From contig JAFSNT010000034.1 of the NCBI GenBank assembly GCA_017443295.1, positions 1 through 32,061 on the forward strand: a stretch of DNA of 32,061 bases, in the 5' to 3' direction. The notes below the pieces were generated by a model that saw only the letters and a list, made by a program, of their open reading frames with translations, did not search any database and was not told the DNA's origin. Positions 16,601-32,061 of this stretch are shown here, in pieces. The DNA is from Clostridia bacterium. GTDB taxonomy: Bacteria > Bacillota > Clostridia > Christensenellales > Aristaeellaceae. How positions within the stretch are numbered: the stretch's first letter is position 1; each line of letters begins with the position of its first letter. The translations under genes and the position numbers were made by a program.

Positions 16601-19600
16601 GCGGCCACCTGTACTTCTACTCCGAATCCAGGGGCAGCATCGGCTTGACCAGTGACACCCGTCTGGACGTCTCGTCGCCCGATATCCAATTCTTTGACCT
16701 GAATGTTGATCCTGTGATCCGCACCAACGTGTTCCTCTATAAACGCGCCGGTGAAGGCGATCTGCTGATCCCCCGCGATATGGTGGTGGACGGCGCCATC
16801 TGGAACGTGGCCACCGGCAACGGCAGCGTGATCTTCGGCGACAGCGCCGACAACGTGAACCATACGCTGACCCTCGTCAACGGCGGCAAGGCCATCATCA
16901 CCACCAACGTGCTGGATGACGGCAGCGCCAACCCCGCCGCCACCAACCCCAGCGACGTGCGCATCAAGGAAATCGCGGCCCAGGGCATCAAGAAAACCGA
17001 CGATACGCTGGATCCCAACTACCGCGAGGGTGATCTCATCATCCCCAAGGGCGATCAGTCCACCGTACTCATTCGTGCGACCCATGACGTGATCATCGAA
17101 AAGATCGATCTGGCCGACGTGGTCGGCGGCGACGACGTGGGCGGCCTGCTGATCGTTGAGGCGGGCGGCACGATGACCGTCGAAAAGACGTTCAATATGA
17201 AGAACAAGGGCGAAGCGCGTCTGACCTTGGGGGACGAAGGCGTATTTGAAGACGAAGTCACCCTGCTGGATCACAGCCTGATGATCGCCACCGCGAAGAA
17301 CGATATCACCTTTGAGAAACAGCTGAAAGCGGACGGCGGTTCCACCATGAACCTCACGTCCACGGACGGCGGCCTGATCGCTAAGGACGACGTGGTCATG
17401 ACCAATGGCAGCATCGCCAATATCGACCTGAAGAAGGACGCCGAGTTCAGGACCCACGCGGATCTCACCGGTTCCGATATGACCCTGGTCTCCCATGAAG
17501 GTGACGCGGTCATCACCGACTACCTGATTGCGAAGGACGGCTCCATGGTCAGCATGACCCTGGAGAAGGGCAGCTTCGTGCTGACCGACTATACAGGCGA
17601 AGACGGCAGCCGGGTGGAAACCTATCTGAATACCGTGGGTTCCGTGCTGAACCTGAACGCCTTGCAGGATATCCTGGTCAGCCACCACACCGCCGAGGGC
17701 AGCATCGAAAACATGATCGCGGGCAACCGATTCAACGCCAAGGATCTGACCCTCACCGGCACCTCTACCACCATCAACGCGGACAAGGGCGTGACCATTG
17801 TCAGCGACGAGAACGAAAACCTGACCGACGATCCCTACGTCGTCAAGGTGTATGACAGCCTGAGCAGCCGCACGGCCACCGTCACCGATCAGGCCACCGG
17901 CAACATCACCACCAGCGCCATGGGCCTGAAGATCATCAGCGCCAACGGCGGCCTGGACAGCGCGGGCGAGGATGACAACCGCTACGACAGCTGGTACCTG
18001 GAAAACGGTGATATGAACGCTCTGGTGAAGGAGGACATCGTCCTCCGCGACCACCTGAAGACGGTGGGCGGCACCGGCACCCTGCGCACCACCGCCGGTT
18101 CCTTCATTCTGAAGGATTACACCGTCGACGGCGCGCTCCGCACCGAAGGCATGCAGCTGACCGAAAACAGCGTGCTGGAGATCATCGCCAAGAAGAGCGT
18201 ACTGGTGGATCGCGTCGCGGCGTCCGCTTCCGCGCTGAGCATGACGGCGGAATCCGAAAATATCGAATCCAAGACCTGGACGGCGGACGCCAGCCGCGTG
18301 TTCGCGGACGCCGAAAAGAACGTGATCGTCCTCAATCCCAGCGACTTCACCGACGGCCCCGCGGTCACCGTCACCGGCTCCGAGTACGCGGATTCCTTCC
18401 GCCATCCCGATTCCACTGACGATACGGAAATCCCCGTGGAGCATATGGGCCTGTACGTGAACGCCCGCAACGGCAGCGTACTGTTCATGACCCGGCTGGC
18501 GGAGGACAACGACGTCAACTCCCTGGACTTCCAGGCGGTGAACAGCAACGTGGACGTGGACGCCCGCGACCATGTGACCATCCTGGAAGCCACCCTCACC
18601 GACGCGGACATGAACATCAAGTCCTCCGGCGTAAAGGTCACCCGCCGCGGCTTGGGCCTGATGAACGCTCTGCGCGACGGCGCGGAAAACGAACCCGAGA
18701 GCCTGGTCAGCCTGGCCAACTGGGTCGTCGGCGACCGCAGCAACCTGAACATTACGGCCCTGGGCGATATCAACATCCTGTACAACCTGAACGGCGTCAA
18801 CGAGGATGAACGCATCGCCGAACGCGAATTCACAATTATCAACGACAGCCATGCCACCGTGACCTCCACCGCCGGCGGCGTGTACATCCTGCGCGATTAC
18901 GATCTCGCCGATACGATGTCCACGCTGGCTTACGAGGCGGACGATTACGTGGGCGACAACATCTACGTGCCGGACGTGCTGGTGGTCGGCAACGAAACCG
19001 AACCCAGGACCCGGGACGACGCCTTCGGCGACCGTTCCTCCTTCACCGCCACCGGCGCCAAGACCGTGAAGGTGGCCAACATCCTTTCCGACTTCGCGGA
19101 CGTCAGCCTGCGTTCTACCGACGAAGATACGCTGTTTGACATCATCCGCGGTGAAGAAACCAACCTCCGCGTCGTGGCCGGACAGAACATCGACGTGCTG
19201 CACCCCTTCAATGCCGACGGCACGGTGCGCCAGACGATGATCAGCTACCACGACCGCGCCTATGACGGCGATACCACGCCCATCGATACCCCGAACAACG
19301 CCTCCGTTACCCTGAGCGCGGGCCTGGATATCGGCACGGAAGAGAGGAACCTGTACGTTGACGTGCCCGAAGAACTGACCGTGCGCATCGAACGCGTAAG
19401 GAACCTGTACCTCACCGCGCTCAAGGCCGACGCCATGGGCGATCCCGTGAAGCCCCTGACCTGGAGCAACGAATCCATCAGCTATGATCCGGAGAACGGC
19501 AAGCTCGTCCTGGACGGCGAAAACTACCGCTTGGGCTACAGCGAGAAGGACGGCATGCTCATCACCGGCGAAATGGAGAACGTGGACGGCGAAGAATACT

Positions 19601-25600: not shown

Positions 25601-26511
25601 AAGACAACCCCATCACCACCAACGTGGACACCATCACCGCCGTGGGCCAGGATGTGTACATCGACAACCGCTCCGACGAGCTGACCGTGAAGGAAATCTC
25701 CGGCAAGACGGTGGACATCGACACCGCCGGCAGCCTGGGACAGACGCCTGACGGCACTATCAACGCGCACGACCTGACGATCACCGCCGGGTACGACGTG
25801 GGTTCCGAGGACGATCCTCTCCGCGCCAACGTGTCCGGCAATATGGACGTGACCTCCATCTGGGGCAATGCGTACGTCGTTACCGCCCACGGCTGGCGGC
25901 TGCTGAAGGATGAAATCAGCCAGATCGCCGTACTGGGCGCGTTCACCGAAACAGCCAAGCTGAAGGTACTCAGCACCGCGCACTACGCCATGCAGACCTA
26001 TCCGGAGCTGCTGGAACAGTACGCCTGCGGCGAAGATACGACGGCCTACAGCGAACACTGCGCGGCCAACGGCAGCCCCGAAATCTATCAGGCTCTGATC
26101 GACGGCGCGAAGAACGACGCCAGCAAGACGCTTTGGGCGCTGGTTCGCGATCAGCACGCCATCGGCGACTTCGTCCTGGGCATCTTCTCCGAAGAAGACC
26201 ACGTGTGCGACAGCCTGATGCGCTTCGAGATCAGCCTGGCCGGCCTGAACAGCGCCTACGACGGGCAGCTGGAAGGCGAAATGGTGTATGTGCTGCTCTG
26301 CGTGGCGGGCAAGCTGGTCAGCGTTCCCGTGCAGGTGCAGGACGGCATGCTCCACTTTGACCTGGATCGTTTGGGCATGGACAAAGCGAATTTCGGCTTC
26401 ACGCCTTTCGTCATCGTCAGGAGCGACGTGTACGACAGCCTCATGACGGAAAAAGGCGAGGTCAGCACCGATTCAAAAGCCCAGGCCGACAACGGCACGG
26501 TGAACAACTGA
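1..26511 (+). CDS. Giant modular secreted/surface repeat protein (adhesin-like), 5' end missing
   Basis: The frame is open from base 1 (LEKALNDLLNSL precedes the first visible Met at 37) to TGA at 26509-26511, so at least 8,836 residues are present and the true start is upstream. I do not recognise a named gene. Residues below count from base 1. Order: helical 1-560; Gly/Ala/Val-rich beta repeats of about 54 residues, 561-3350; irregular beta-helix-like 3350-4030; aromatic-rich 4030-4480; TGTLY/KDG repeats 4680-5200; beta-helix-like to 6540; helical duplication 6545-6880; coiled coil 6880-7240; beta 7240-7665; coiled coil 7665-8345; beta 8345-8630; Cys-containing C-terminus. The beta repeats recall, from memory, fusobacterial LktA-type filamentous adhesins. 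There is no LPXTG, C-terminal membrane helix, dockerin or barrel. A long extracellular fibre or adhesin is inferred. Coding status is certain, function is not. Confidence 0.93.
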   Translation: MEKALNDLLNSLMDKLGLSQYDAVLDVTGGIASVVAGIAKDIASGMLTDEHGFGEALLSVGSFSEITDLLTNNINAAADVFNNIPNVVKDSLYEILEAAVGKDTLELVKSIESGSLADELLDFSELMTPIEIINAAVEQVEATVGRIDDVIAKLEETLLSVKDISLDISEDMLPEDLRKDYHDLVDGIAQIKALANLSELDALSDLTDMSAITDISALKEHLEKLKQVKSDMEALAGRLSDAIDAVLETDFAQMAADLGKDVVLNLKDEMASLVLETIKNSVTSLTFDAEAFQNGVQDALKKTLKEAAEKASADALAEVKAIYNEAKRIIDVVTSTADVAEQFTTGKIELLKNKLETLTGLAESLETKAEGIISAAEKVTTAAGNLLENLDKITEHATEQAAEQIKKQIEERIDSVTSFIKENIDATIGGFTTLVDGVVTNYAQVIGGKIDLVTNTVKKAEASVSHMKETVLDGAKFREAMKESVMKAANNIKDSTIGALTDGIVDVDKLSAYIKGGTLGQDLKNSLMVAVKNAGMALTNGALDALTDWLDLKVQAPESNVDKHVITTEAIAGAGGGSVGVAGSVAVAVLNGTTKAIIEGYAGGDASIEAGGEVAILAVNDQKVTTTATGSMNPDGSADKNEGAGESDVNDTKSKDDAGEEAEEKTLYTVANPSGGGELSVSVKGRDKEDGAVKAAYEDLVEVSVRPPQGKEVDTLTYTYTADGKTVTKKIIVKDHSADGETTYVFYMPEGNVSSIQATYKDADPKAKTGNANTNSKGSSVGVGAAFSFVYGEVNTSAALGENRVLDADALAIRAKAEREVETSSVSGTDPLARDGGSSGSKDISIDASVALNILEGSIEAGVGRNARITTHGEDSILIDEPEETEEGEEGEEGEEGEEEADDDAPKANFVLTADEISKAISRASGFSMGQSTAVGAAVAINIIDTDVNVGFAGSAELENGTAYIAGTSVNEDESNAMATAMGADMERYTNKFKKAEESAEDAVNGVSSGEAFNETESDKENSNKTAGGINKKLDAESDKAEGDKTEADKASTKAPLSTNVMRTQSVSDKTDTSKANNDVSEAGSEADSATDQNLQMSGDKNKSSIQVAAAVGLTISKHQVNTTMQGSINAAGGVSVLAGNEGNFRTLGTGAAMSLAKNSNAIAAGVAVSVNRNEANTEVGDGAEIVSEDGDVTVEANLTQNTTGKYNGLLAAQSLAGAVSGSGGGASVAGAISVLVSSAETKARIGENASIEAHKIAVQAVDKSKMAIRAGGISVSKGASVGVGASVAVIVSNNVVDTSIGDGASITGTRLDVLAEKTMVTMKDYRLPYGINDAMTNSTGADENAETGMLDMKKEGDSYKVSINIKSEDLLKAVDLLNFLSSTNYYAEAIGGSVNTGAKSSASVAGSIAMIYFNNKINAAVGAADITITSSEDEDADEGEDGGVSINAYGGSNTRIIAGAVSASASNSVGADVALLINNDAVNTKVGLTGQANITADGDYEQTAKVDSYTQVFSIAASAGKKNTVGGTINVIVSNNEAVSELGANARVTSGGKLDVLANTAEDLLLVAAAAAVALTKGAAVGGNVDVIVNRAKTKAIVGAGAELLAGTDIKIHADDREQLISVIAAVSASGGGHSIAGAAGVLVTKSDTLVDVGSGAKLTAVEGALSLKAKSDSLMANAILSTAISLKGMGIGATVNVDVFKRNVKVNTANAQLTAGKSIASQALGKDNTVLITMAVGAAKDIAVAGSIPVTVAKNNIKNTNSGALRATAGGSIAFESDYTYSLVDAAGGIGISLSGVAVGATLSTAVISNTVETTLGDASILRAAAKHTVNTRGAGDATGIYVGATGDERIILASLSASGSLSSAAVAGVINTLVASNKIKADAGSATMIAGYDEDMTQTALADVIVNAKDEAGLYNCAGALSVSGSTGVGATIVTLVFAQNVAARAVGTIQASRDVTVKATTDNDVWLLALTFAAGASNGVAGGANVLVFQSEAKADLGGTILAGRNVTAAAKGDNMLLNIAASAGIGGSAGVGAVAVVTYFQGKTLANILENSVLGADDNKIGGKVTVSAESTEFVSSDAAGIAGGGTAGVGGTIDIIITKVRTEARTGRNVKTYSAGAVDVTATDNYDLMAIAASLAVGGTAGVGVTALVSVALGTVAAVVGEGNTIVADGVKVQADNQRKILTADATVAGGGTAGVGATLTAVVAGAKMSQDAHDTLYGGMKPETQVEGGFGNANSAAREYKPTDTAAVLEGDGQRPGSNNYGSYGQGGMVYESPNGEILYTKDSNNNYHSTGKTRVAAGNDPVFYYDAESGQYVGAVEVYDESSFSNTANGGDGTSFTAKTVGDLSDAVSAVIGGGGSVTANKNIDVLSNDKLETLIISGTVAVGGTAGVGVGLTVGVLNSNVQARVDEGTALKAGGSINVNAATGASKASGSVQKAAGSVNPLSQDQINSSNAKANEDAGGNAGDSSARLISATAAGGVAGIGVSGAVLTVFSNVTAKMSGNVNGASSLNVTSGMNFGKVLTANLAAAAGAVGVNASVGMAYFDGKAHAMIAGGQAQTIKNVTNSINVQTTGSTNATVVAASIAAGATAVNAGVVLALNRSEAGSIIGRNVTIDAENANVSVGHSFSSNAITVPISISVGAVAVNAMATVAINSLNAKSYIGAAEGEAQGSGRINAASLAVTAIANGDVDVTGVAVSGGAAAVNGIVAIGLNFVKNVAAMRRMPVTLTGAMDVSAKMTGVTDVFSTSITVGGVAVGASVDAAYIGSSNEAIVELGGDSTASRLTVLATNDPRATVMGITGGAGGTAVNVNVGLALNKGLNRAVLGGSGNLTLTGEEDDDGLFVEAVGIGQAHTALYSAGIGGVSVNVSLAFSWLKAQQEAKIDNTGTIVVENNKTVRVEAIQSTPNPHANYVFTDKNGGNAQTVKFGDSMAKAYLFSAGAGLVSVNASAGVVISDSTNRASLKAKNLTAGTVYVTGGGKSDSNVKIDNIGVGVVSVGLMAGVSLTKGTFDAGISATGDWNIYSLILKNDYTSTSVSDVTPAAGGVSASLVNAGVNVGIALNATKANTTLNGGGRVTVQKVVNISTNSSYVAGEPNAQAIITKPAVDVSMVKVVANVAVAQNRLSQTTTLNNISFLGGTANVTISSTLKNAGAKAETKLSGGSGASVSIVGIDLNFAVATSKTVNTATISGGTIDVKSLSMNSNTKSQVNAFGKTPTAVGLVLLGALLTDARTADRVTATASNANITTANDLDITAVGDGTADAMSENGMKVSLVSGTSSRASAQVGAGSGDRQSVTAGISGGTINVGGSLDVSAENTGSAKANIKSGLELGLATVSVSVLPTTSYYKTEAYVKGGANVTTGRDLTVRTQDYTKAESRANSNSIGLGLSADDTKGTNTIVTDSAIDIGGVLKAGNNLNIQINSITSMDARTVSTGGGFIKGSGLRAENYLTRTGKITVGENSELAANFGDVNILSVLGRSYDGKKTDSISTYAKSVGGGVVTLSTIRNDTTISNTAQIDVNNGVSISNRFNNINIRTDASQNGLSVYGSADASGLGAAPDVKNDVRLTLTSKVNLGQGGKKVEIEGRRVYVGARIAELSENVYAYAKGAAVGADVDATNNTTHHIDAITNVSSVTMIAHDDAKLYASTAPAYKKENIRSESRVQLNAIGEAIAKTDMRDSYAKATLKVNSGFTFYGTNLNATVDQYDKNRTSVIQKVGGFISKKKKDEGSFTVSKDASFTNSVLYLGDAAAGIYIDISNDLNGNGTVRQVGIKNEAEIWSITNSVVTLGNISNFMPGTANLTGNISGLTVYNQAMLPQITITNNTDRSLTLGNVIFRNEGFVNPRVYKDGTRYSVNILNTHYAPELVVTNTGAGDITLNGMIPLYDGRATFQWTGETGGRLLSADTVTVITMDDTTGTQSVRPLWTHSLVVKNAAQVGYDEAHPFYAWIVSSDTERDPDDVLIASEGDVYFDMAAVQLYDVNSLDDSSIHNESRPAPVVDINSITSAQGNVYLALEEGRNLYMTDPNTVTIPLPGTLEYDTSSTVTLAAEYTVSGLDMLAYYEIAYDPESGISTYQLPNGTVFYMDGQGNVSRIEEGGVSTALTDYTFHQNENGKVDMITIGEGVSINLLTGKLNVEDGTSFEVLMQAISATWMNEKGLFNGGIKVRISLEDGSDKDFKVLKMNREWNNLVWYYMNQLMPDVMKVQTVNNFMIAWDKASNQLHFYRVGQATTDNGAISKFNEDVFKNLSGEEEGGNYRTTYSKTDAFFGAGGKKLSVGEILNTNNRTNNWTYVFPVGTNEDGDELLGFLETGYWVKATSTDRGYGNNHAYTYEWSADGVHYQELHIVDTGSNMGVTVDANYSGDIYDALNGVYWLPTHETGVLTSVMTNKGERIEANVDDHFRFTEPRHHVRVWTPKLWYSWPTIDITAHEEHLVIHNLTLEEVSAFFSNEGYETVNYYEPSVWDEETGSESTKLNAEYNEDGTIRRDAGGNIVGEARRVYVNYDAQGNITSLYEMVTRTDEEGTPILDEYGKEIIDIKPIQLIGDSLHEDYGHTGFFKLSENGETYILEEDSEKAAAAGIDTVNDFTGTTGAYDTTKGGIKQGDTTYYKYLVVDAKNNETASYTYAGDYYVAVTGEEVKVVEHKDAEQADLTGVQSQDKFLLALDHGDLGDAVYTASDATITVNGAAKAGTRYNSDGSADDAFFAIPGALYQRVETTVKVVNEQTGKEEEKTVVTWTLVENPEEIDLTDYTRTNTQTVEDEENKTELTGDLYSFTEVSEEEGAEATTVTYLRAPDTVYSLTRTLITHDVWHEETEEVTFTEAETQAATANQTVTVDGAQITGTLYTKDGQQYLKTAGAEGSEGKLFKLTNEPVYSVTLEEQAEAVEFTESETEAAQEGEITDDSGETYTGTLYVKDGVTYILTPDTVVDTGEVDEENKPIMETVPGVLYKINKEKTYTEAWNKTATERIDSEEILWLYADVERYATDESGKYVINDAGEFQTEKDENGNPIVDSVGVGGFGSVGRWVLKSAWNALSGAVDAELTDEDAIALVNSGATFDYYRLEGGKLVKPQGDIAEYGSLMCRNVQDEGGNVVSRVVTLYKPPRYEDVDRSIKTWQTETVEEEEGQEGAFIASMTAENGYSILQNQTVTVDGQEITGTLCEKDGVRYLVAEETVEGEPVQTLYKMHSDSPEAGKDEVLIVYVRDWFDVVLYDGLTARLRYDEFKSESRPAGDDNPVYVLRFGDAKDTKDGPAQTPTMTITGAVSGIELNLVSLPDTAGVKSITTETDRNASYRITETLYLTVSGLVVSVKDAFAAKYDGTTYESTKIIASQLTGATKTEKDAAGNVISTDNGKPVLTMKANEAIWRELRTDVISTDRNGNYWYKGANDSEWKQASATVRRDPTNENVSIRRDGFATVTYNGKTYLEITLEKPKDDSGRVLENEDYVLYFRMPVGSGEIKAGSDGKVDVVSGKPYNQKLVRDVIGTYCYVTTITAAQNADIWIFGGRDSMLDGDPANRDNDDVTAGGHLYFYSESRGSIGLTSDTRLDVSSPDIQFFDLNVDPVIRTNVFLYKRAGEGDLLIPRDMVVDGAIWNVATGNGSVIFGDSADNVNHTLTLVNGGKAIITTNVLDDGSANPAATNPSDVRIKEIAAQGIKKTDDTLDPNYREGDLIIPKGDQSTVLIRATHDVIIEKIDLADVVGGDDVGGLLIVEAGGTMTVEKTFNMKNKGEARLTLGDEGVFEDEVTLLDHSLMIATAKNDITFEKQLKADGGSTMNLTSTDGGLIAKDDVVMTNGSIANIDLKKDAEFRTHADLTGSDMTLVSHEGDAVITDYLIAKDGSMVSMTLEKGSFVLTDYTGEDGSRVETYLNTVGSVLNLNALQDILVSHHTAEGSIENMIAGNRFNAKDLTLTGTSTTINADKGVTIVSDENENLTDDPYVVKVYDSLSSRTATVTDQATGNITTSAMGLKIISANGGLDSAGEDDNRYDSWYLENGDMNALVKEDIVLRDHLKTVGGTGTLRTTAGSFILKDYTVDGALRTEGMQLTENSVLEIIAKKSVLVDRVAASASALSMTAESENIESKTWTADASRVFADAEKNVIVLNPSDFTDGPAVTVTGSEYADSFRHPDSTDDTEIPVEHMGLYVNARNGSVLFMTRLAEDNDVNSLDFQAVNSNVDVDARDHVTILEATLTDADMNIKSSGVKVTRRGLGLMNALRDGAENEPESLVSLANWVVGDRSNLNITALGDINILYNLNGVNEDERIAEREFTIINDSHATVTSTAGGVYILRDYDLADTMSTLAYEADDYVGDNIYVPDVLVVGNETEPRTRDDAFGDRSSFTATGAKTVKVANILSDFADVSLRSTDEDTLFDIIRGEETNLRVVAGQNIDVLHPFNADGTVRQTMISYHDRAYDGDTTPIDTPNNASVTLSAGLDIGTEERNLYVDVPEELTVRIERVRNLYLTALKADAMGDPVKPLTWSNESISYDPENGKLVLDGENYRLGYSEKDGMLITGEMENVDGEEYYAIVIPEFQEENLADWLLERSDALYGNDGAVAWTYLLSDAVDVEAYVLSAYEDMADSQIENAIQKEFGRDMLTAAKKAVKDETFATVQEYLVAAVTTPTGAMEDEAYKTLCDAASEIVYRKLYAEGMIDSYTDEAGEKQQLDRKGQILSIIGDDRAWDYAVDFAGQLRGAINSFTDTTPVENQSLSDWLLERSEAVYGDENTVGWMNLVSASEEEVKAYIAAPYEGMTDKEIETALTAEYGKEFVAAAKTAVKNGTSQSMQAFIADAALTPIGNAADEAQQAILEAARSSVFEKLLAAGMAGAYTDEDGKREISLQDQITLLTQRDEAYAAALAQQRLEAAAMDDASYQNAPGHERTSNYLTAAQQALADADQSVSDSTAARDSLQNALRVLTEQEIAQQRESEKLAALEADLAALKEEQKTLREREDQNANKAAQQALEAQIRQQKTRVDSQQAVDARAAEIAEKTAQLAEAENALRLGRMEQIAAQMNLDELNEAVLRAKTFQADYTREGSVRAETGDWTAKADEAAWLTEAEAAAEQAEQAVQAGDYAKAKELADQALDSLKTAGAYSQISLEQAIALTQPLQAVAEAVANSDAAKTAADAYDASYEAYTAAYEALHEKLKAQDKLESEGLYLQGAKFETEEQKQAAIEDWEARLAAAADETAAAQREADGRMAELTQAQAELRAAEQLLSDARGTAVEAERYGYQLSSTRIDAEQRDLNILMGEAVEGGEINVRNEGSITIVIDKDMDTPDTVALKDSDVTVGTVNSERGNVSIENRSGSLLAGENEYKEVGDHVYLEENVHGRDITLAARDSVGSADSAFLVEETAHENTQVVNTYMVSLYGEPGMTDTGILMDADSNTKRTENKPIGSLYTNNGEDMTLAEKVANTSLTSELPTVTAGSVAEGELASIIAIRKDTLRAYSESEATSLNLSAQTGSIFVTERTGSIGAGEIRAAGDVVLTAINGDVTQLATADNRSTVTVGGEMTVTVNGDVSLINEGDLTLNLNTPTNHVDITGREASEDVKNTYGLSDEAAEGSISVTSESEDALTGTALSNGSVTLLNGGDIGTADEAFEIHSVLETGTVTLKGDNINVNNAEGGITVNEIEAHGNLTLNVGSDIADAGNTGLGDTMDGLTDAQQALTDAERALTETNTAAGYAEKAKEAADSALAEAIENKRLAEEALEQANSDLNQARTDLDAAQQALDEALANLNENDRDSVKAVEDARKAVEAAQAAETAATEAVEHWQAEVDAAPQAIENATQAVTEAQAALEQAQATQEEARTVRDHAKETLQYAEDLLDAQRDYVNALHDEAATDLEKTALANQVGAEEDLRDAYRDYVALAEDENADPQALAQAEEAVNVARQAVEETRTAVQVLRNETAAEQALADAVDAAENAENERAQAEQNKNDATDAVAQAQEALDAAVTDKQIREAQAKLDEAVAAEAEAQEALEAAENAKAQADQNVVDAENALEKAKAETELVNQLEDRMNRAADESNTEESLQKANDALAAAKQLLEAQLAEDAAEADEKAALKELQEATDAKTEAEQQLQTAEETARAAEQTLADAEAAAQQAEEALNALGDNASGAQRREAQKNLDDANAALEEARNAAQQANEEKDQAQNTFDAAETRLDNATAAEAEASQNLADAQEARAEAEGIAQAAADAADKQTAKEAAQKQLADAQEEQNQVTNLIQELADANEEMEREQAQRDSDRDSYNRSNTGKDTAQKGLEDTTRKSDTLDKQNNTLADKQAAVKALEEQLAALTGTSDPDQAKEAAQQKVDQAQNDLNAAAAASQTADAAVNHDAIKPDATGSGAVRADDAKSGDAAIRVSGNATITSGGSIGGQNGQELTMNVDGVTDIKAKDDVKLQSGQDVTLNNLTAGGSVGVAGHGDITGVGGDPVISGTDVTLNAVSTGDENATIGKADGTALTLDTDEISLRGDDVGVDVTGGVTLGDIVAKNADITADGDVIRKEGTEVDASDLTIRTTGNIGTEDNPITTNVDTITAVGQDVYIDNRSDELTVKEISGKTVDIDTAGSLGQTPDGTINAHDLTITAGYDVGSEDDPLRANVSGNMDVTSIWGNAYVVTAHGWRLLKDEISQIAVLGAFTETAKLKVLSTAHYAMQTYPELLEQYACGEDTTAYSEHCAANGSPEIYQALIDGAKNDASKTLWALVRDQHAIGDFVLGIFSEEDHVCDSLMRFEISLAGLNSAYDGQLEGEMVYVLLCVAGKLVSVPVQVQDGMLHFDLDRLGMDKANFGFTPFVIVRSDVYDSLMTEKGEVSTDSKAQADNGTVNN
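1990..2292 (+). other. InlB-B-repeat-like domain inserted early in the beta array
   Basis: Residues about 664-764 read as GGGELSVSV, then EDLVEVSVRPPQGKEVDTL, then a strand pair, then TTYVFYMPEGNVSSIQATY. The pattern 'V.V.P..G..vd.l.....g........g...F.MP.gnv.v.a.y' is that of the divergent InlB B-repeat / bacterial repeat domain found in many Bacillota surface proteins. It is a single copy, flanked by low-complexity Asp/Glu/Lys/Gly linkers, and interrupts the solenoid. Assigned from pattern memory only. Confidence 0.6.
2656..2691 (+). repeat. (Glu-Glu-Gly)x4 coding microrepeat
   Basis: Four consecutive Glu-Glu-Gly triplets, coded by alternating GAAGAAGG(T/C) and GAAGAGGGC 9-mers and followed by EEEADDD, form an acidic spacer between two beta repeats. 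The 9-base period keeps frame if copies are gained or lost, so its length could vary between strains. Confidence 0.85.
2905..3315 (+). other. Charged, disordered linker inside the beta array
   Basis: About 135 residues dominated by Asp, Glu, Lys, Ser, Thr, Asn and Ala (for example KLDAESDKAEGDKTEADKA) with almost no hydrophobic periodicity. The beta repeats resume at SSIQVAAAVGLTISKHQ. It is probably an unstructured, solvent-exposed spacer that interrupts the solenoid. No cleavage or anchoring motif is recognisable. Confidence 0.65.
12100..13440 (+). other. Aromatic-rich island, candidate globular/ligand-binding domain
   Basis: Trp and Tyr, scarce elsewhere in the protein, are concentrated here: REWNNLVWYYMNQ, NNWTYVFPVG, GYWVKATS, YTYEWSADGVHYQELH, GVYWLPTH and VRVWTPKLWYSWPT. 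The segment lacks the Gly/Ala repeat pattern, and its strands alternate with turns such as DGQGNVSRI and TNEDGDELLG. It most resembles a folded domain of about 450 residues carried on the fibre. Carbohydrate or surface binding is a guess from aromatic content. I do not recognise the family. Confidence 0.5.
14041..15590 (+). repeat. Five degenerate 'TVDG..(x)TGTLY.KDG..YL' repeats
   Basis: The motif recurs with its Thr-Gly at about 14089 (AGTRYNSDG), 14326 (TGDLY), 14545 (TGTLYTKDG), 14749 (TGTLYVKDG) and 15493 (TGTLCEKDG). The first four are 68-79 residues apart and the last is 248 residues on. Several copies continue into a 'PG.LY.......' strand and an acidic 'VTFTEAET' tail. Copies 3 and 5 share the lead-in NQTVTVDG. 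This block is acidic and Thr-rich and differs clearly from the Gly/Ala repeats before it. Confidence 0.7.
19633..20640 (+). repeat. Tandem duplication of a 172-residue helical domain
   Basis: Copy 1 opens NLADWLLERSDALYG (Trp codon at 19645) and copy 2 opens SLSDWLLERSEAVYG (Trp codon at 20161), an offset of exactly 516 bases. Parallel landmarks follow in order: AYEDMADSQIE / PYEGMTDKEIE; EFGRDMLTAAKKAVK / EYGKEFVAAAKTAVK; VQEYLVAAVTTPTGAMEDEA / MQAFIADAALTPIGNAADEA; AEGMIDSYTDEAGEKQ / AAGMAGAYTDEDGKRE. The DNA has diverged while the protein pattern is kept, so the duplication is not recent. The family is unknown to me. It sits directly before coiled coil 1. Confidence 0.85.
20641..21720 (+). 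other. Coiled coil 1 of the giant protein
   Basis: About 360 residues of Ala/Glu/Gln/Leu/Asp heptads, for example SEKLAALEADLAALKEEQK and AEIAEKTAQLAEAENAL, broken by a short non-helical stretch near FQADYTREGSVRAETGDW. It ends near AEQRDLNILMGEA, where beta sequence resumes. It is probably a rigid rod or oligomerisation segment. Confidence 0.8.
23000..25030 (+). other. Coiled coil 2 of the giant protein
   Basis: About 680 residues of nearly uninterrupted Ala/Glu/Asp/Gln/Leu/Asn heptads, such as LTDAQQALTDAERALTE, EAQAALEQAQATQEEA and LADAQEEQNQVTNLIQELA. Glycine and aromatics are almost absent. This is the longest coiled coil in the window. It is flanked on both sides by similar beta-strand sequence ('NVNNAEGGITVNEIEA' before, 'AIRVSGNATITSGG' after), so a helical rod seems to have been inserted into, or bridges, a beta-helix. 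Confidence 0.85.
25890..26508 (+). other. C-terminal domain of the giant protein, Cys-containing, no visible anchor
   Basis: The last roughly 205 residues lose the beta-repeat pattern and look globular: TAHYAMQTYPELLEQYACG, AYSEHCAANG, LWALVRDQHAIGDFVLGIF, DHVCDSLMRFEISLAG, MVYVLLCVAGKLVSVPVQV. Four cysteines lie here, against about five in all the preceding visible residues. The tail STDSKAQADNGTVNN is polar, with no LPXTG, hydrophobic helix or basic end. It could be a folding cap or an export/anchoring determinant of unknown type. Confidence 0.55.
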
Positions 26512-26618: not shown

Positions 26619-28892
26619 TCACAGCAAAGCGCGCTGAATCTTGCCGCTGGTAGTCTTGGGCAGTTCATCCCGGAAAACCACGATGCGGGGGTATTTGTAG
26701 GGCGCGGTGCGCTGCTTTACGTAGCTTTGGATTTCTTTCTTGAGTTCCTCGCTGCCTTCCTTGCCCTTCACCAGCACGATGCTGGCCTTGACCACCTGGC
26801 CGCGGACGGGGTCCGGCGCGGCGCTGACGCCGCACTCCAGCACGTAGGGCAGCTCCATGATGACGCTTTCGATCTCGAAAGGCCCGATGCGGTAGCCGGA
26901 GGACTTGATCAGGTCGTCCACCCGGCCCACGTACCAGAAGTAGCCGTCCTCGTCCCGCCAGGCAGTGTCGCCGGTATGGTAGAGGCCGTCGTGCCAGTTG
27001 CCGTTCACGTTCTTGTCGTCGCTGCCGTAGTAGCCGGTCAGCAGGCCGCAGGGCGGGTTGTTTTCCCCGGTGTGAATGACGATTTCGCCCACCTCGCCAA
27101 CGGGCACGGGGTTGCCGCTGGGATCGACCAAATCAACGTCGTAGAGGGGCACGGGCTTGCCCATGGAGCCGGGCTTGGGGGTCATGCCGGTGAGGTTGCC
27201 GATGATGATGGCGCTTTCGCTCTGGCCGAAGCCCTCCATGATGGTGATGCCCGTGGCTTCCTTGAATTTCTGGAACACTTCGGGGTTCAGGGCCTCCCCC
27301 GCGATGGTGGCGTAACGGATGGAGCTTAGGTCGTACTTGCTCAAGTCCTCCTTGATCAGCATGCGGTACATGGTGGGCGGCGCGCAGAAGGTTTTGATGC
27401 CGTACTGCTTGAACAGGGGCAGGATATCGTCGGCGTGGAAGCGGTCGAAATCGTATACGAACAGGGCGGCTTCGCACATCCACTGGCCGAAAATCTTTCC
27501 CCAGCAGGCCTTGGCCCAGCCGGTGTCCGAGATGGTCAGGTGCAGCTGGCCCGGCAGGACGTTATGCCAGAACTTGGCGGTCATGTAATGGCCCAGGGGG
27601 TACTTGTGGCTGTGGCACACCAGCTTGGGATAGCCCGTGGTGCCGGAGGTAAAGAACATGAGCAGGGGATCGTCGCCGCAGGCGGAATCCTCCGTGCGGT
27701 CGAAGTGGGAGGAAAACACGCTGTATTCGCTGTCGAAATCGTGCCAGCCGTCCCGCTGACCGCCGCAGAATACCAGCGTCTTGATGCCGGGGCACTCCGG
27801 CAGGGCCTTTTCGATTTCGCCCGCCGCCTGACCGTGGCTGGTACACACCACGGCGCTGACCTCGCCGGTCTGGAAGCGGTAAATATAATCCTTGCAAAGC
27901 AATTGATCCGTGGCGGGGATCACCACCGCGCCAATCTTTTCCATGGCCAGCATAGTGATCCAGAAATGATACTGGCGGCGCAGCACCAGCATCACCCGGT
28001 CGCCCTTTTTGATGCCTAAGGACTTGTAGTAATTGGCGGCCCGGTTGCTCATCTTGTGGAAATCCAGGAAGGAGAAGCGGCGCTCCTTCTTGTTGATGTC
28101 CAAATGCACCATGGCAAGCTGATCGGGATGCTCCTTGGCCAGCTCGTCCATGATATCGAAGGCGAAATTGAAGCGCTCGATATCGTGGTAATGGACGGAA
28201 ACCGGCGTGCCCTTGTCGTTGACCTTGGCGTCCACGAACCGGTCGGCGATGATGGACTGGGCCTGCTGCGCCGGGGCGGCGGCGTCGTGGATGTGGGGAT
28301 TGTACTCCGTTTCCTCGCCGGGGATGACCACGGCTAAGAACACGCAGTCCTGCCCCTCGGCGGCGATGAGGCCGTGGGGGGTGGAGGAATCGAAGAACAC
28401 GGAATCGCCCGCCCGCAGGGTTTCCGTATGCTCGCCGATCTGGGCGCGCAGCACGCCGGACAGGATGTAGTCAAATTCCTGGCCGGGGTGGCTCACCGTT
28501 TCGATGGGGGCCGCCTGGAGGGCGGGGTCATAGGAATAGCGGGTGAGATACGGCTCCACGATGCGCTTGCGGAACATGGGGGCCAGGTTCAGCATCTTGA
28601 TGCCCTTGATGTCCGTGACCACCTCGCCTTCCCCGTGGCGGGTGACGGTGTAGTTGGACAGGCGGGGACTGGTGCCCTCGATCAGATCCACGATGTCCAC
28701 GCCGAAGGCGGCGGCGCACTTGTGGACAAAGGAAAAGGGCATTTCCACGCTGCCGGTTTCATACCAGGCGCAGTCCGCCTCGGAAAAGCCCGTCATGCGG
28801 GCCAGATCGGCGGTGGTATAGCCTGCGATATCTTTCAGTTCGCGGATACGGGCGGCCACGTCCCGCAGCATTTCGGGGGCCTGGGTTGGCAT
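26619..28892 (-). CDS. XRE-family HTH / cupin / AMP-forming acyl-CoA synthetase fusion
   Basis: 757 residues. Residues about 8-65 form an XRE helix-turn-helix (IRELKDIAGYTTADLARMTG, then a SVEMPFSFVHKCAAAFGV tail). About 120-195 form a cupin (HPGQEFDYILSG, then GDSVFFDSSTPHG). About 250-757 form an adenylate-forming ligase of the acetyl-/medium-chain acyl-CoA synthetase type: FTSGTTGYPK at 414-423, GFGQSES at 554-560, HTGD ending at Asp642, GRVDDLIKSSGYRIGP following, and PKTTSGKIQR with the catalytic Lys at 751. All core motifs are intact, so the enzyme should be active: acid + ATP + CoA to acyl-CoA + AMP + PPi. The start is supported by AGGAGGG at 28900-28906, 7 bases upstream. A T-box leader precedes it and an oxidoreductase operon diverges from it. 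The substrate is unknown; a branched-chain or aryl acid is inferred from context. Confidence 0.93.
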   Translation of the reverse strand: MPTQAPEMLRDVAARIRELKDIAGYTTADLARMTGFSEADCAWYETGSVEMPFSFVHKCAAAFGVDIVDLIEGTSPRLSNYTVTRHGEGEVVTDIKGIKMLNLAPMFRKRIVEPYLTRYSYDPALQAAPIETVSHPGQEFDYILSGVLRAQIGEHTETLRAGDSVFFDSSTPHGLIAAEGQDCVFLAVVIPGEETEYNPHIHDAAAPAQQAQSIIADRFVDAKVNDKGTPVSVHYHDIERFNFAFDIMDELAKEHPDQLAMVHLDINKKERRFSFLDFHKMSNRAANYYKSLGIKKGDRVMLVLRRQYHFWITMLAMEKIGAVVIPATDQLLCKDYIYRFQTGEVSAVVCTSHGQAAGEIEKALPECPGIKTLVFCGGQRDGWHDFDSEYSVFSSHFDRTEDSACGDDPLLMFFTSGTTGYPKLVCHSHKYPLGHYMTAKFWHNVLPGQLHLTISDTGWAKACWGKIFGQWMCEAALFVYDFDRFHADDILPLFKQYGIKTFCAPPTMYRMLIKEDLSKYDLSSIRYATIAGEALNPEVFQKFKEATGITIMEGFGQSESAIIIGNLTGMTPKPGSMGKPVPLYDVDLVDPSGNPVPVGEVGEIVIHTGENNPPCGLLTGYYGSDDKNVNGNWHDGLYHTGDTAWRDEDGYFWYVGRVDDLIKSSGYRIGPFEIESVIMELPYVLECGVSAAPDPVRGQVVKASIVLVKGKEGSEELKKEIQSYVKQRTAPYKYPRIVVFRDELPKTTSGKIQRALL

Positions 28893-28913
28893 TTTCGTTC
28901 CCTCCTATGAAAA

Positions 28914-29025
28914 GAGTTGAGAGTTGGGAGTTGAGAGTTGAGATTTTATATAGCTGAATACAGTGCGCGGAATGAGCAGACCCTATGATCTCAACGCTCC
29001 GCTCTCAACTCTCCACTCTCCCTCT
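28914..29025. repeat. Heptamer-armed inverted repeat, family A (GAGTTGA)
   Basis: The left arm (28914-28941) is four 7-base units: GAGTTGA, GAGTTGG, GAGTTGA, GAGTTGA. The right arm (28991-29025) is five units in the complementary sense: TCAACGC, TCCGCTC, TCAACTC, TCCACTC, TCCCTCT. The core is about 49 bases and AT-rich at its left end. It lies in the transcribed leader of the ligase gene, between the T-box terminator and the ribosome site, and could fold into one long hairpin. No target-site duplication or transposase is visible. Confidence 0.8.
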
Positions 29026-29032
29026 CGCGGGG

Positions 29033-29073
29033 CAGACAAAAGCCCGCCCCAAAGTGTTTCTTTGAGACGGGCT
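29033..29073 (-). terminator. T-box leader terminator
   Basis: On the minus strand AGCCCGTCTCAAAG (29073-29060) pairs over 14 bp, including G-U pairs, with CTTTGGGGCGGGCT (29054-29041) around AAACA, followed by TTTGTCT. It starts 15 bases after the T-box motif, the usual arrangement for a mutually exclusive antiterminator. Confidence 0.9.
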
Positions 29074-29322
29074 GAATAAGCATCAGCTCGCGGTACCACT
29101 CAAATTGCGCGGTGTGATCGCGCCCCTTATGGACTCCCATGAAGCCCTTCGCACTGACGCGGCGTTCGCGGAGCATCCTACTTGGGGGAACCGCCCCTGT
29201 TCAGAAGCCCGGCTCGGAAGCCACAGCCTGATGGATCCCCGCCGCCGGTTTTCAGCGCCCCCGGCTCTCTGTGGGTGGACATTCCATCCGCCTTCTTCGT
29301 CATCGCCTTTCGGTATGCGATT
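29033..29322 (-). promoter_or_regulatory. T-box riboswitch leader upstream of the acyl-CoA synthetase
   Basis: Read on the minus strand, the conserved T-box AGTGGTACCGCG lies at 29100-29089, followed by a complete terminator. Upstream, stem I can be folded by hand: GATGGA (29288-29283) with TCCATC (29235-29230), the AGAGA bulge, then GCCGG (29265-29261) with CCGGC (29248-29244) around a GGGCGCTGAAAA loop. The lower helix GAAG/CTTC is followed by the GAGC kink-turn element. The UGGU of the T-box predicts a tRNA with discriminator base A. Uncharged tRNA binding would favour the antiterminator and expression of the ligase. T-boxes normally control amino-acid synthesis, transport or tRNA charging genes. 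The specifier is tentatively GUG (29224-29222). Confidence 0.88.
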
Positions 29323-29328
29323 GGAAGT

Positions 29329-29357
29329 AGTTTAGCAGATCGAAAAAGAATTGTCAA
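29329..29357 (-). promoter_or_regulatory. Sigma-A-type promoter of the T-box/ligase transcript
   Basis: On the minus strand, -35 TTGACA (29357-29352), a 17-base spacer, and -10 TAAACT (29334-29329). Transcription would begin near 29322, just before stem I of the T-box. Confidence 0.8.
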
Positions 29358-29394
29358 CAGGCAAATGGACGGATTTATCGCCGCCATACAAAAG

Positions 29395-29407
29395 AAATAC
29401 AGTATTT
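29395..29407. promoter_or_regulatory. Palindrome between the divergent promoters, possible operator
   Basis: AAATAC-A-GTATTT is a perfect 6-bp inverted repeat around one base. It ends 5 bases before the plus-strand -35 box and lies about 38 bases upstream of the minus-strand -35. XRE-family regulators commonly bind short AT-rich palindromes, and such a domain is encoded by the adjacent gene, so autoregulation is possible but unproven. Confidence 0.4.
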
Positions 29408-29412
29408 AATGG

Positions 29413-29441
29413 TTGACATTTTCCGCGCACGGTTTCATAAT
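29413..29441 (+). promoter_or_regulatory. Sigma-A-type promoter of the P-loop ATPase/oxidoreductase unit
   Basis: -35 TTGACA (29413-29418), 17-base spacer, -10 CATAAT (29436-29441). The predicted start of transcription near 29448 leaves a short leader before the ribosome site at 29465. Reading the gene from the upstream in-frame TTG at 29413 would place the start codon on the -35 box, which argues against that start. Confidence 0.78.
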
Positions 29442-29464
29442 GACATGGTACCCTTTTGAACGGG

Positions 29465-29472
29465 AAGGAGGG
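29465..29472 (+). promoter_or_regulatory. Ribosome binding site that fixes the P-loop ATPase start
   Basis: AAGGAGGG lies 6 bases before ATG 29479. The in-frame upstream candidates (TTG 29413, ATG at 29440) lack such a site and lie within or right at the promoter. Confidence 0.8.
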
Positions 29473-29478
29473 AGAGCC

Positions 29479-30165
29479 ATGCGGCGCATGACCGTGATCG
29501 CGGGCCATTACGGCAGCGGGAAAACGGAATTGGCGGTGAGCTTAGCCATGGAATTGACCCAGGCAAAAACGAGGGATTATCCCCGGCTTGCCATTGTGGA
29601 CTTAGACGTGGCGAACCCCTATTTCCGTTCCAGGGAACGGATGGACATTTTGGAGGCCCACGGCGTTTCCGTCTACGGCGACTCCTTCCATTCCACCGGC
29701 GCGACGGCGGAGCTTCCCGCCCTGACCGCCGCCCTCCGCGCTCCTTTGGAGGACGAAGGCTGCCAGACCATCATCGACCTTGGCGGCAACGACGCCGGGG
29801 CGCGGGTGCTGCGCCAGTTCGGCAAGTATTTTGAGGGAAATGACCACGAGCTGTGGGCGGTGGTGAATTTCCGCCGGTACGAGACGCTGACGGTGGAAAC
29901 GGCCCGGGAGCATGTGGAAGCCATTCAGAATGAATTGCAGATACGGGTAACGGGGCTGGTAAACAATACCCACCTGCTCCGGGAAACCACTGCGGACATC
30001 ATCCGGGAAGGGTACGAAAAGGCCAAAGCCCTGTCGGAGGATATGCACATTCCTTTATTATTCACCTGTTATCCCGCGGGCATCGTTCAGCCAGAGGAAC
30101 TCAAGGGCATTGCGCCCCTGCATCCTCTGGGCCTGTACATGCGGCCCGCTTACCTGGATAAATAG
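29479..30165 (+). CDS. P-loop ATPase (ParA/MinD/CobB-like) of unknown role in an oxidoreductase operon
   Basis: 228 residues from ATG 29479. Walker A is GHYGSGKT at 9-16. A Walker-B-like strand IVDLDVANPYFRSRE at 39-53 follows, then IIDLGGNDAG near residue 100 and a VNNTHLL stretch that may contact the base. The fold class is a small P-loop NTPase annotated in databases as CobQ/CobB/MinD/ParA-like; the simple G-x4-GKT loop is not the deviant KGGxGKT of true ParA/MinD. From memory, close relatives with GHYGSGKTE and DLDxxNPYFRSRE recur beside 2-oxoacid:ferredoxin oxidoreductase genes in Clostridia, but their function is not known to me. A cofactor- or cluster-loading role is possible. The gene is separated from the next one by 197 bases containing a heptamer inverted repeat. 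Confidence 0.88.
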   Translation: MRRMTVIAGHYGSGKTELAVSLAMELTQAKTRDYPRLAIVDLDVANPYFRSRERMDILEAHGVSVYGDSFHSTGATAELPALTAALRAPLEDEGCQTIIDLGGNDAGARVLRQFGKYFEGNDHELWAVVNFRRYETLTVETAREHVEAIQNELQIRVTGLVNNTHLLRETTADIIREGYEKAKALSEDMHIPLLFTCYPAGIVQPEELKGIAPLHPLGLYMRPAYLDK

Positions 30166-30188
30166 TAACTGTTCAGCCGAAGGGGCAG

Positions 30189-30306
30189 AAAAAGTGGAAA
30201 TTGAAAAGTGAAAAGTGAAAATCAGGATAGATGACAATTTGTCCGGTCTCTGTTTGCACAGACTATAAAAATACCACTTTTCACTTTCCACTTTTCACTT
30301 TTATCA
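30189..30306. repeat. Heptamer-armed inverted repeat, family B (GAAAAGT)
   Basis: The left arm is a run of 7-base units AAAAAGT, GGAAATT, GAAAAGT, GAAAAGT, GAAAATC (30189-30223). The right arm is CCACTTT, TCACTTT, CCACTTT, TCACTTT (30274-30301), running on into TATCAC. The roughly 50-base core contains its own small hairpin (GTCTCTG...CACAGAC region, 30246-30263). It fills most of the 197-base gap between the ATPase and ferredoxin genes. A transcript hairpin could attenuate read-through or protect mRNA ends. It has the same architecture as the element at 28914-29025 but a different heptamer. Confidence 0.8.
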
Positions 30307-30362
30307 CTGCTTCCCTATGACTGAACGATTACCTATAGAAAAATTGGGAAGGAGAAATAAGT

Positions 30363-30590
30363 ATGCGGGCGTTTAAGCTGGTTTTCCGTCCGGAAAAGTG
30401 CAAGGGCTGCGAGCTGTGCCGTTCCGTATGCCCCAAGGGCGTCATCGGCATGGCGGCCACCGTCAATGCCAAGGGGTATCACCCCGCCTGCGCCGTGAAC
30501 CAGGAAGCGTGCATCGGCTGCCAAAGCTGCGCGCTGATGTGTCCTGACGGCGCGATAGCCATTTATCAGTTGGAGGAGGGCGACCAATGA
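30363..30590 (+). CDS. 2x[4Fe-4S] ferredoxin subunit (delta) of 2-oxoacid:ferredoxin oxidoreductase
   Basis: 75 residues. Two classic clusters are visible: CKGCELCRSVCP (Cys 13, 16, 19, 23) and CIGCQSCALMCP (Cys 50, 53, 56, 60), with an extra Cys43. Each C-x2-C-x2-C-x3-CP motif binds one [4Fe-4S] cluster, passing electrons between the catalytic subunits and external ferredoxin. Length and sequence match the small ferredoxin-like subunit of VOR/KOR enzymes. GGGAAGGAG at 30346-30354 lies 8 bases before ATG. Its stop overlaps the start of the alpha gene (ATGA), indicating translational coupling. No clear separate promoter was found in the preceding gap. Confidence 0.93.
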   Translation: MRAFKLVFRPEKCKGCELCRSVCPKGVIGMAATVNAKGYHPACAVNQEACIGCQSCALMCPDGAIAIYQLEEGDQ

Positions 30591-31681
30591 TCACCGATAA
30601 AGTGCTGATGAAGGGCAACGAGGCCTTTGCCGAGGCCGCCATCCGCGGCGGCGCGCGGCTGTATTTCGGTTATCCCATCACCCCCCAGAGCGAGGTTCCC
30701 GAGTATATGAGCCGGGAGCTGCCCAAGCACGGGGGCTGCTTCGTGCAGGCGGAAAGCGAGCTGGGGGCCATCAACATGGCGTATGGCGCGGGCAGCGCCG
30801 GCGGCACCGTGTTTATTTCCTCTTCCTCTCCCGGCATCGCCCTGATGCAGGAGGGCATGAGCTTCCTTTGCTCCGCCGAAGTGCCGCTGCTGGCCATGAA
30901 CGTCAGCCGCGGCGGCCCCGGCATCGGCGGCATTCAGCCCGCCCAGGCGGACTATTACCAGGTCACCCGGGGCGGCGGCAACGGCGACTATAAGATTCCC
31001 GTGTTCGCCCCCGCTTCCATCCAGGAAGCCGTGGATATGCTGTACGCGGGCACCGAAATGGCCCAGTACTGGCGCAATCCCATCATGATTTTGGCCGACG
31101 GCATGATCGGCCAGATGATGGAACCCGTGCGCCTGCCGGAATTCAAGCCTGTGCTTGCGCCCAATGAAATCGCGGGCAAGCGGGATTGGGCCTGCACCGG
31201 TTATGCCGACCGGGGCGGCGACCAGAACCGCCGGGTGGTGAAGTCCCTGCGCATGCAGCCCGAAAAGCTGGAAGAGCACGTGGAAAAGCTGTTCAAAAAA
31301 TACGCCCAGATGGAAAAAGAGCTGGCGAAGTACGAGACCGAAAACCTGAAGGGCGCGGAAGTCGTGTTCGTGGCCTTCGGCACCACCGCCCGCATCTGCC
31401 GGGAAGCCTGCGAAATCCTGGCCTCCCAGGGCATCAAGGCGGGCCTCATCCGGCCCATTTCCCTGTGGCCCTTCCCGGAAAAAGCCTTTGACGAGATCGA
31501 CTTCGGCACCACCAAGGCCGTCATTTCCGCCGAACTGTCCATGGGCCAGATGATCACCGACGTGAAGCTGGCGCTGAACGGCCGTCTGCCCGTATACCTG
31601 GCCCACCGCACCGGCGGCATGGTGCCCACTACGCCGGAAGTGGCGGCACGCGCAAAGGCTGTATTGGAGGGATTGAAATGA
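30587..31681 (+). CDS. vorB: 2-oxoacid:ferredoxin oxidoreductase alpha subunit (VorB-like)
   Basis: 364 residues, the usual length for the stand-alone alpha subunit. The N-terminus has the family signature MKGNEAFAEAAIRGGARLYFGYPITPQSE (key motif YPITP at 29-33), then AESELGAINMAYGAGSAGG, the pyrimidine-domain region. The C-terminal transketolase-like domain carries VVFVAFGTTARICREA and ENLKG/LIRPISLWPFP. This subunit with the beta subunit converts a 2-oxoacid + CoA to acyl-CoA + CO2 + reduced ferredoxin, reversibly. The sequence resembles 3-methyl-2-oxobutanoate (branched-chain) oxidoreductase VorB most in my memory; 2-oxoglutarate (KorA) is the main alternative. GGAGGAGG at 30572-30579 precedes the start by 7 bases. 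It overlaps the genes on both sides by 4 bases. Confidence 0.9.
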   Translation: MITDKVLMKGNEAFAEAAIRGGARLYFGYPITPQSEVPEYMSRELPKHGGCFVQAESELGAINMAYGAGSAGGTVFISSSSPGIALMQEGMSFLCSAEVPLLAMNVSRGGPGIGGIQPAQADYYQVTRGGGNGDYKIPVFAPASIQEAVDMLYAGTEMAQYWRNPIMILADGMIGQMMEPVRLPEFKPVLAPNEIAGKRDWACTGYADRGGDQNRRVVKSLRMQPEKLEEHVEKLFKKYAQMEKELAKYETENLKGAEVVFVAFGTTARICREACEILASQGIKAGLIRPISLWPFPEKAFDEIDFGTTKAVISAELSMGQMITDVKLALNGRLPVYLAHRTGGMVPTTPEVAARAKAVLEGLK

Positions 31682-32061
31682 AGCCCATCTTTGAATACAC
31701 CAAGGGCATGACCGAAATGCCCACCCATTACTGCCCCGGCTGCACCCACGGCATCGCCCACCGGCTGATCATGGAGGTGCTGGACGAAATGGGCATGCTG
31801 GGCAACACCGTCGGCGTGGCTCCCATCGGCTGCTCCGTCATGGCCCACCAGTACATGAACGTGGATATGTGCGAGGCCGCCCATGGCCGCGCGCCCGCCG
31901 TTGCCAGCGGCATCCGGCGCGTACACCCGGATAAGATCGTGTTCACCTACCAGGGCGACGGCGACCTGGCCTCCATCGGCACCGGCGAAATCATTCACGC
32001 CGCCGTGCGCGGGGAAAAGTTCACCACCTTCTTCATCAACAACGGCATTTACGGCATGACC
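31678..32061 (+). CDS. 2-oxoacid:ferredoxin oxidoreductase beta (TPP-binding) subunit, 3' end missing
   Basis: The first 128 residues are visible before the window ends. CPGC (Cys 19 and 22) and PIGCS (Cys 52) supply cluster-binding cysteines typical of VOR/KOR beta subunits. GDGD at 93-96 followed by NN at 121-122 is the thiamine diphosphate/Mg2+ motif. The ATG overlaps the alpha stop as ATGA, so the two are translationally coupled. A gamma subunit gene would be expected next, outside the window. Confidence 0.93.
   Translation, partial: MKPIFEYTKGMTEMPTHYCPGCTHGIAHRLIMEVLDEMGMLGNTVGVAPIGCSVMAHQYMNVDMCEAAHGRAPAVASGIRRVHPDKIVFTYQGDGDLASIGTGEIIHAAVRGEKFTTFFINNGIYGMT

Follow-up and report, generated by a model that had tools for sequence, protein, structure and literature searches.

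Relation to described systems

T-box leaders of leuA and ilv operons (Rfam family RF00230) consist of a Stem I bearing a specifier codon, a UGGN bulge and an antiterminator/terminator pair, and their signal is the product amino acid's tRNA in its uncharged form. A leader of the same build, presumably answering to the same kind of signal, was identified in contig JAFSNT010000034.1 (assembly GCA_017443295.1) of an uncultured clostridium, whose close kin come from ruminant guts. Its target, however, is an acyl-coenzyme A (acyl-CoA) ligase, which we propose to feed reductive carboxylation by a VorB-type 2-oxoacid:ferredoxin oxidoreductase (VOR) encoded divergently. The whole stretch of DNA analysed, 32,061 nucleotides long, is called the window below, and the coordinates of its features are collected in Table 1.

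The best NCBIfam model for the ligase is MbcS (NF047394), an enzyme said to act on branched short acids and to supply fatty-acid synthesis; in Listeria, it reportedly provides primers for branched-chain membrane fatty acids. As the window ligase reaches only half of the curated cut-off (424.4 bits versus 850), it was not filed as MbcS. The closest PDB match, and the closest solved relative of its catalytic part, is the medium-chain acyl-CoA synthetase MacsMa of Methanosarcina acetivorans (3ETC, E 3e-178), which favours 2-methylbutyrate, as stated in a section of PMC10455477. On the other hand, the matched 3ETC chain is too short to include the N-terminal XRE-cupin part of the window enzyme.

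According to a section of PMC7356843 on the work of Allison and co-workers, isobutyrate is a precursor of valine and 2-methylbutyrate of isoleucine in the rumen. That carboxylation is described as physiology, whereas the locus presented here offers candidate genes, a regulator and a specificity marker. Among the papers listed by searches of the open-licence literature we found no report of a T-box on an acyl-CoA ligase or a VOR, or of the Gly/Ala rule described below, which is weak evidence of absence. A paper listed on the T-box/acyl-CoA ligase theme concerns a leuA T-box, and in the T-box survey PMC2494555 a simple word search of the main text did not return acyl-CoA, CoA ligase, oxidoreductase or carboxylation. 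What we regard as new is the T-box link, the isoleucine/valine pairing of leaders with ligases, the Gly/Ala marker and the rarity of ilvC and ilvD, the physiology itself being decades old.

Proposed pathway

Based on comparison of sequences, we consider it probable that starvation for valine or isoleucine induces an isobutyrate- or 2-methylbutyrate-CoA ligase, respectively, and that the resulting acyl-CoA is carboxylated to the 2-oxoacid by VOR. According to this proposal, the window leader would be a transcriptional T-box reading tRNA-Val. When valine is low, uncharged tRNA-Val would pair with the leader at the GUG codon and the UGGU bulge, which would keep the terminator from forming and allow the ligase to be made. 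The enzyme would convert isobutyrate of the gut to isobutyryl-CoA, which VOR, using reduced ferredoxin, would carboxylate to 2-oxoisovalerate, and an aminotransferase would turn the latter into valine. By an equivalent route, a paralogue with an isoleucine-reading leader would serve to make isoleucine from 2-methylbutyrate. Ligase and leader would have switched their specificity jointly, and the replacement of Gly460 (2-methylbutyrate) by Ala460 (isobutyrate) is the likely change in the pocket. We infer the binding of tRNA, the ligase substrates, the direction of VOR and the transamination step, as well as valine as the product of the ligase pathway, from the comparisons that follow.

The T-box leader

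The initial annotation had described a complete T-box leader ahead of an acyl-CoA synthetase, and a covariance search with RF00230 bore this out, the model being matched over its full length. With 76.1 bits the leader remains below the Rfam gathering score of 93; for this reason a default Rfam scan of the window came back empty, and a permissive scan settled the matter. Our motif calls were checked in the same way. In the loci of 10 relatives Rfam detected 14 T-boxes, every one of them preceding a ligase and 6 of them scoring above 93, and it detected none in 6 loci that had been called T-box-less, in agreement with the motif calls.

The sigma-70-like promoter site, UGGU bulge, antiterminator and terminator are arranged in the order expected for a T-box. 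As read from the sequence, the antiterminator overlaps letters of the terminator's 5' arm; the two structures are mutually exclusive. By a strict pattern, UGGU was present in 156 of the 160 leaders whose specifier had been called by the rule described below (97 isoleucine and 59 valine; the 4 leaders without it read isoleucine).

An imperfect inverted repeat of simple, GAGAGTTGAG-like make-up (28919-29020) lies between the T-box and the ligase start. MicroRNA matches reported beside the T-box by the permissive scan coincide with this repeat and were set aside.

The specifier codon

Two collections of sequences were analysed. A one-genome-per-species scan provided the best 80 loci of a longer list, ranked by closeness to the window's ligase. 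A class-wide sample comprised 293 genomes, for which a completeness of at least 90% was requested, together with the window's own genome; 64 fused-ligase regions were taken from this sample. Full-length ligases without internal stops from both sets, which may overlap in species, were combined with that of the window into a set of 177.

Specifiers were read by a rule that expects the triplet and a single base, next a 4-nt helix arm, and after another single base GAGC or similar, with the other helix arm placed after UGA close to the 5' end. In the window the rule yields the valine codon GUG, which also occupies the specifier position in the Rfam alignment of the leader. Altogether 161 of the 177 leaders were readable, 101 as isoleucine (AUC) and 60 as valine (GUA, GUG or GUC), and among them there was no other specifier. 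These readings include 159 made by the rule and 2 valine codons assigned by eye, one of which overrides the rule's GGC. For the remaining ligases, no T-box was found in 14 cases and the leader was short or cut in 2. The choice of amino acids offered by the initial annotation, which also named leucine and phenylalanine, is thereby narrowed to isoleucine and valine. The link that it proposed between the T-box amino acid and VOR agrees with the GUG codon, as the 2-oxoacid of valine is generally known to be a VOR substrate.

Covariation is seen in the register-defining helix of the ligase leaders (GAAG/CUUC, GGAG/CUCC, GAGG/CCUC, GAAA/UUUC, GGAA/UUCC and AAAG/CUUU), and the bases flanking the triplet vary while the triplet itself is constant; the register is therefore supported. 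As a control, the rule was applied to the 18 T-boxes of the window's own genome, where it read GCC upstream of AlaRS, AUC upstream of IleRS, and CUC and UGG upstream of a LeuA-like and a TrpB-like gene, respectively. Apart from these 4 correct readings, 6 cases were not judgeable and 2 were the ligases themselves; the other 6 are weighed below. The LeuA-like gene behind the CUC T-box scores 196 bits with TIGR00973. This model (leuA_bact) proved uninformative as a genome marker, since at E 1e-100 it matched 97 of 293 genomes and the window's own was not among them. In the same genome (G000:C88, locus L013), a T-box to which the rule assigns UGG (tryptophan) precedes a short frame and a glycerol-dehydrogenase-like gene.

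The genome of the window encodes a second ligase on another contig (C116), 66% identical to the first, with Gly at residue 460 and preceded by an isoleucine (AUC) leader. Two ligase stretches occur in 43 of the 80 nearest loci, and many loci contain tandem pairs in which the first ligase is isoleucine-reading and the second valine-reading.

The fused ligase and its residue 460

The window ligase is a single frame with the Pfam order HTH_31, Cupin_2, AMP-binding and AMP-binding_C. The plain fatty-acid ligase of the initial annotation has thus to be corrected to an enzyme fused to an N-terminal, regulator-like part, and the XRE-cupin domains suggest additional control at the DNA level.

More distant rows with internal stops (42-47% identity) seem to contain the same two parts as adjoining genes. 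In four of the loci (L183, L184, L189 and L190; 43-46% identity) XRE-cupin and ligase matches are separated by stops, like adjacent genes, and no T-box was found at these four loci.

The specifier readings track both the ligase clades and residue 460, located directly after the DTGW motif. This residue is Gly in all 101 isoleucine rows and Ala in all 60 valine rows, and column 460 is the only one of 757 with a single residue per specifier class. The majority residue differs between the main valine clade and the isoleucine rows in 184 columns, of which only three (76, 460 and 748) shifted alike in the clade of the window. Ligases lacking a T-box have Gly in 12 cases and Ala in 2. In 3ETC the position is occupied by Gly, in contrast to Ala in the window enzyme, and the alignment is gap-free there. 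In Salmonella Acs the equivalent of residue 460 is probably Val310, which belongs to the acetate pocket; a literature search for this correspondence listed nothing. Ala460 in place of Gly460 would add a methyl group to the pocket wall, against one methylene less in the substrate, which is the direction to be expected. Both the identity of residue 460 and the closest enzyme of solved structure are consistent with isobutyrate or 2-methylbutyrate as the predicted substrate of the ligase.

In a FastTree phylogeny of the 177 ligases, the isoleucine/valine label requires 2 changes. Valine rows outside the group of the window form one clade of 55, together with one T-box-less row (support 100). The clade of the window (5 valine rows) is placed among isoleucine-type ligases, beside the paralogue from its own genome and L023 (support 99-100). 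An IQ-TREE analysis of 36 chosen rows gave the same picture and rejected a single joint valine clade (approximately unbiased test, p-AU 3e-18).

One T-box-less fused ligase (L154, position 2310, + strand) has Ala460 and lies inside an isoleucine-type clade; perhaps it represents a third switch, made without a riboswitch.

VOR genes and the canonical pathway

The back-to-back arrangement of the ligase with a P-loop ATPase and VOR-like subunits, noted in the initial annotation, was borne out, the alpha subunit on the divergent strand exceeding the VorB cut-off. Genes for the delta, alpha and partial beta subunits precede the contig end; in the relative L021 a gamma gene (PF01558) follows beta. 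Ferredoxin and alpha genes adjoin the ligase in 47 of the 80 nearest loci; ATPase, ferredoxin, alpha and beta are all present in 41 of the 80, and 7 (L019, L021, L022, L024, L025, L042 and L043) show the divergent arrangement of the window. Among the 34 loci having about 6 kb on both sides, VOR adjoins the ligase in 25. The expected conservation of the layout therefore holds for near relatives and fails class-wide, where only 5 of the 64 regions have VOR adjacent; adjacency is thus a trait of some lineages, and it is the co-occurrence with VorB that is general.

The search for a second common partner near ligases lacking VOR nearby (10 proteins in 4 loci) revealed none. The neighbours in these loci included EutH, a beta-lactamase-type fold, LeuA, DUF2935 and others, two of them without a match. 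In locus L128, a LeuA-like gene with a LeuA_dimer domain (2744-4219, - strand) lies downstream of an isoleucine-reading T-box ligase on the same strand.

The class sample contained 45 T-box-ligase genomes among the matches listed; the 238 other genomes include one with the fused ligase in pieces (G081) and possibly matches outside those listed, and the genomes are not independent of each other. VorB was present in 45/45 T-box-ligase genomes versus 129/238 others. Conversely, ilvC was found in 7/45 versus 154/238, and ilvD exceeded its cut-off in the very same 7 versus 152/238. Ten genomes with a fused ligase lacking a T-box had VorB in 9 cases and ilvC in 8, all 8 belonging to one family. In 10 families (f4, f6, f12, f15, f18, f28, f29, f48, f57 and f61) ilvC occurs only in members that lack a T-box ligase; family f62 shows the opposite pattern, and f19 and f40 are mixed among their T-box-ligase members. 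In a set of 42 genomes, namely that of the window and 41 of unstated completeness from the 80 loci, ilvC exceeded the cut-off in 3 and gave a weak match (30 bits or less) in 9 more.

In the window's genome, which is 86% complete, we detected neither ilvC nor, at E 1e-100, ilvD, and no acetolactate synthase over the cut-off (the best ilvB match had 196.5 bits versus 538). Two aminotransferase-IV genes are present.

Table 1. Features of the window discussed in the text
Feature	Position	Strand	Basis or remark
XRE-HTH (helix-turn-helix) + cupin + AMP-forming acyl-CoA ligase fusion, 757 aa, proposed isobutyrate-CoA ligase	26619..28892	-	PF13560, PF07883, PF00501, PF13193
Codon of residue 460 (Ala)	27513..27515	-	sole column tracking the T-box specifier perfectly
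Intrinsic terminator, alternative of the antiterminator	29036..29073	-	14-pair stem 29073-29041 + U tail
T-box leader RNA	29060..29312	-	RF00230, 76.1 bits, E 1.1e-16, model 1-219 complete
Antiterminator with UGGU bulge for tRNA 3' end	29061..29104	-	sequence reading + RF00230 alignment
Specifier codon GUG (valine)	29222..29224	-	Stem I register GUG-G-CUUC-C-GAGC opposite UGA-C-GAAG
Promoter-like site of the T-box transcript	29329..29357	-	TTGACA-17-TAAACT, 10/12 consensus matches; consensus match only
Promoter-like site of the divergent ATPase-VOR genes	29413..29441	+	TTGACA-17-CATAAT, 11/12 consensus matches; consensus match only
P-loop nucleoside triphosphatase (NTPase) of no curated family	29479..30165	+	sub-threshold ParA/CbiA-like matches only
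2x[4Fe-4S] ferredoxin-like delta subunit	30363..30590	+	Fer4 matches; PorD/KorD and OorD models below cut-offs
VorB-type alpha subunit of 2-oxoacid:ferredoxin oxidoreductase	30587..31681	+	NF005507, 461.7 bits vs cut-off 399; POR_N, PFOR_II
Beta (thiamine pyrophosphate, TPP) subunit, cut by contig end	31678..32061	+	TPP_enzyme_C

Alternative explanations

It is conceivable, although improbable, that the ligases chiefly make primers for branched-chain membrane fatty acids, starvation for valine or isoleucine being a proxy for a lack of primer and VOR serving other reactions. MbcS is, after all, the best model, even if its 424 bits stay far from 850, and isobutyryl- and 2-methylbutyryl-CoA are generally known primers of fatty acids. 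Such a role would not account for the proximity of VOR genes to the ligase in 47 of 80 loci, for VorB in every T-box-ligase genome or for the 38 of 45 such genomes in which ilvC and ilvD were not found; moreover, T-boxes as a rule serve amino-acid supply. Fatty-acid priming may exist alongside that supply. We give very little credence to an oxidative VOR with the ligase taking part in amino-acid catabolism, despite VOR enzymes being reversible and frequently catabolic. An AMP-forming ligase consumes ATP to activate acids, a T-box sensing uncharged tRNA would switch catabolism on during starvation, and in the class sample the canonical biosynthetic genes were mostly not found in the T-box-ligase genomes. 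The least likely of the three alternatives is that the specifier was misread by a neighbouring register and the T-box answers another amino acid. The rule gave no call or a codon discordant with the gene in 6 of the 18 own-genome T-boxes (L005, L006, L009, L011, L012 and L017), which makes it imperfect on its own; its first version made no call for 15 of 119 ligase rows and read different codons in 4; and the canonical AGUA/GAA loop letters are absent from Stem I of the window leader. Nevertheless, the covariation of the register helix around a constant triplet, the correct codons ahead of AlaRS, IleRS, LeuA-like and TrpB-like genes, and the agreement of the readings with ligase clades and residue 460 all argue against a shifted register.

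Several observations weigh against amino-acid synthesis through a T-box-controlled ligase and VOR, the reading that we prefer. The failures of the codon rule and the missing loop letters belong here, and the rule was refined across four scripts. The Gly/Ala argument rests on two independent specificity switches, and the correlation is therefore suggestive and not proof; in addition, 13 more distant ligases without a T-box have Gly in 6, Ala in 6 and Met in 1. The occurrence of VorB in more than half of the other genomes means that its presence is not specific, the VOR genes of the window carry no T-box of their own, and VOR adjacency is rare across the class. Seven of the 45 T-box-ligase genomes retain both ilvC and ilvD. 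Finally, the window derives from a metagenome-assembled genome with 86% completeness and 7% contamination.

Other features of the window

The P-loop protein encoded between the ligase and the VOR genes matched neither Pfam nor NCBIfam models at E 0.001 (sub-threshold Pfam matches only, with E up to 5) and had no meaningful match in a PDB search; perhaps it acts in the activation of a metal cluster or in redox activation. Another imperfect inverted repeat of simple make-up (30190-30302), AAAAGTGAAA-like and different from the one at 28919-29020, lies between the ATPase and ferredoxin genes. Most of the window is occupied by an open frame of 8836 codons (1-26511, + strand), open at the contig start and with repetitive stretches, which by eye resembles a giant surface protein. 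An open frame of 3855 codons (14788-26355, - strand) runs antisense to it.

Biological significance

The findings provide candidate genes for activating the acids, a regulator that identifies the product amino acid by its codon, and one residue possibly setting the choice of substrate. On balance, we lean towards a broader view, held with less confidence than the pathway itself, that riboswitch and enzyme were respecified as a unit at least twice, AUC changing to GUR together with Gly460 to Ala460, by which a module for isoleucine and 2-methylbutyrate would have become one for valine and isobutyrate. IlvBCD would have given way to such modules and VOR in many Clostridia of the gut and rumen, whose growth would therefore rely on branched short-chain acids released by neighbours; the T-box codon would then predict the acid used by each ligase. 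If true, this would be a natural case of riboswitch and enzyme specificity co-evolving. It would also mean that genomes alone can reveal gut bacteria dependent on the branched short-chain acids of others, which bears on rumen feeding and on cross-feeding in the gut.

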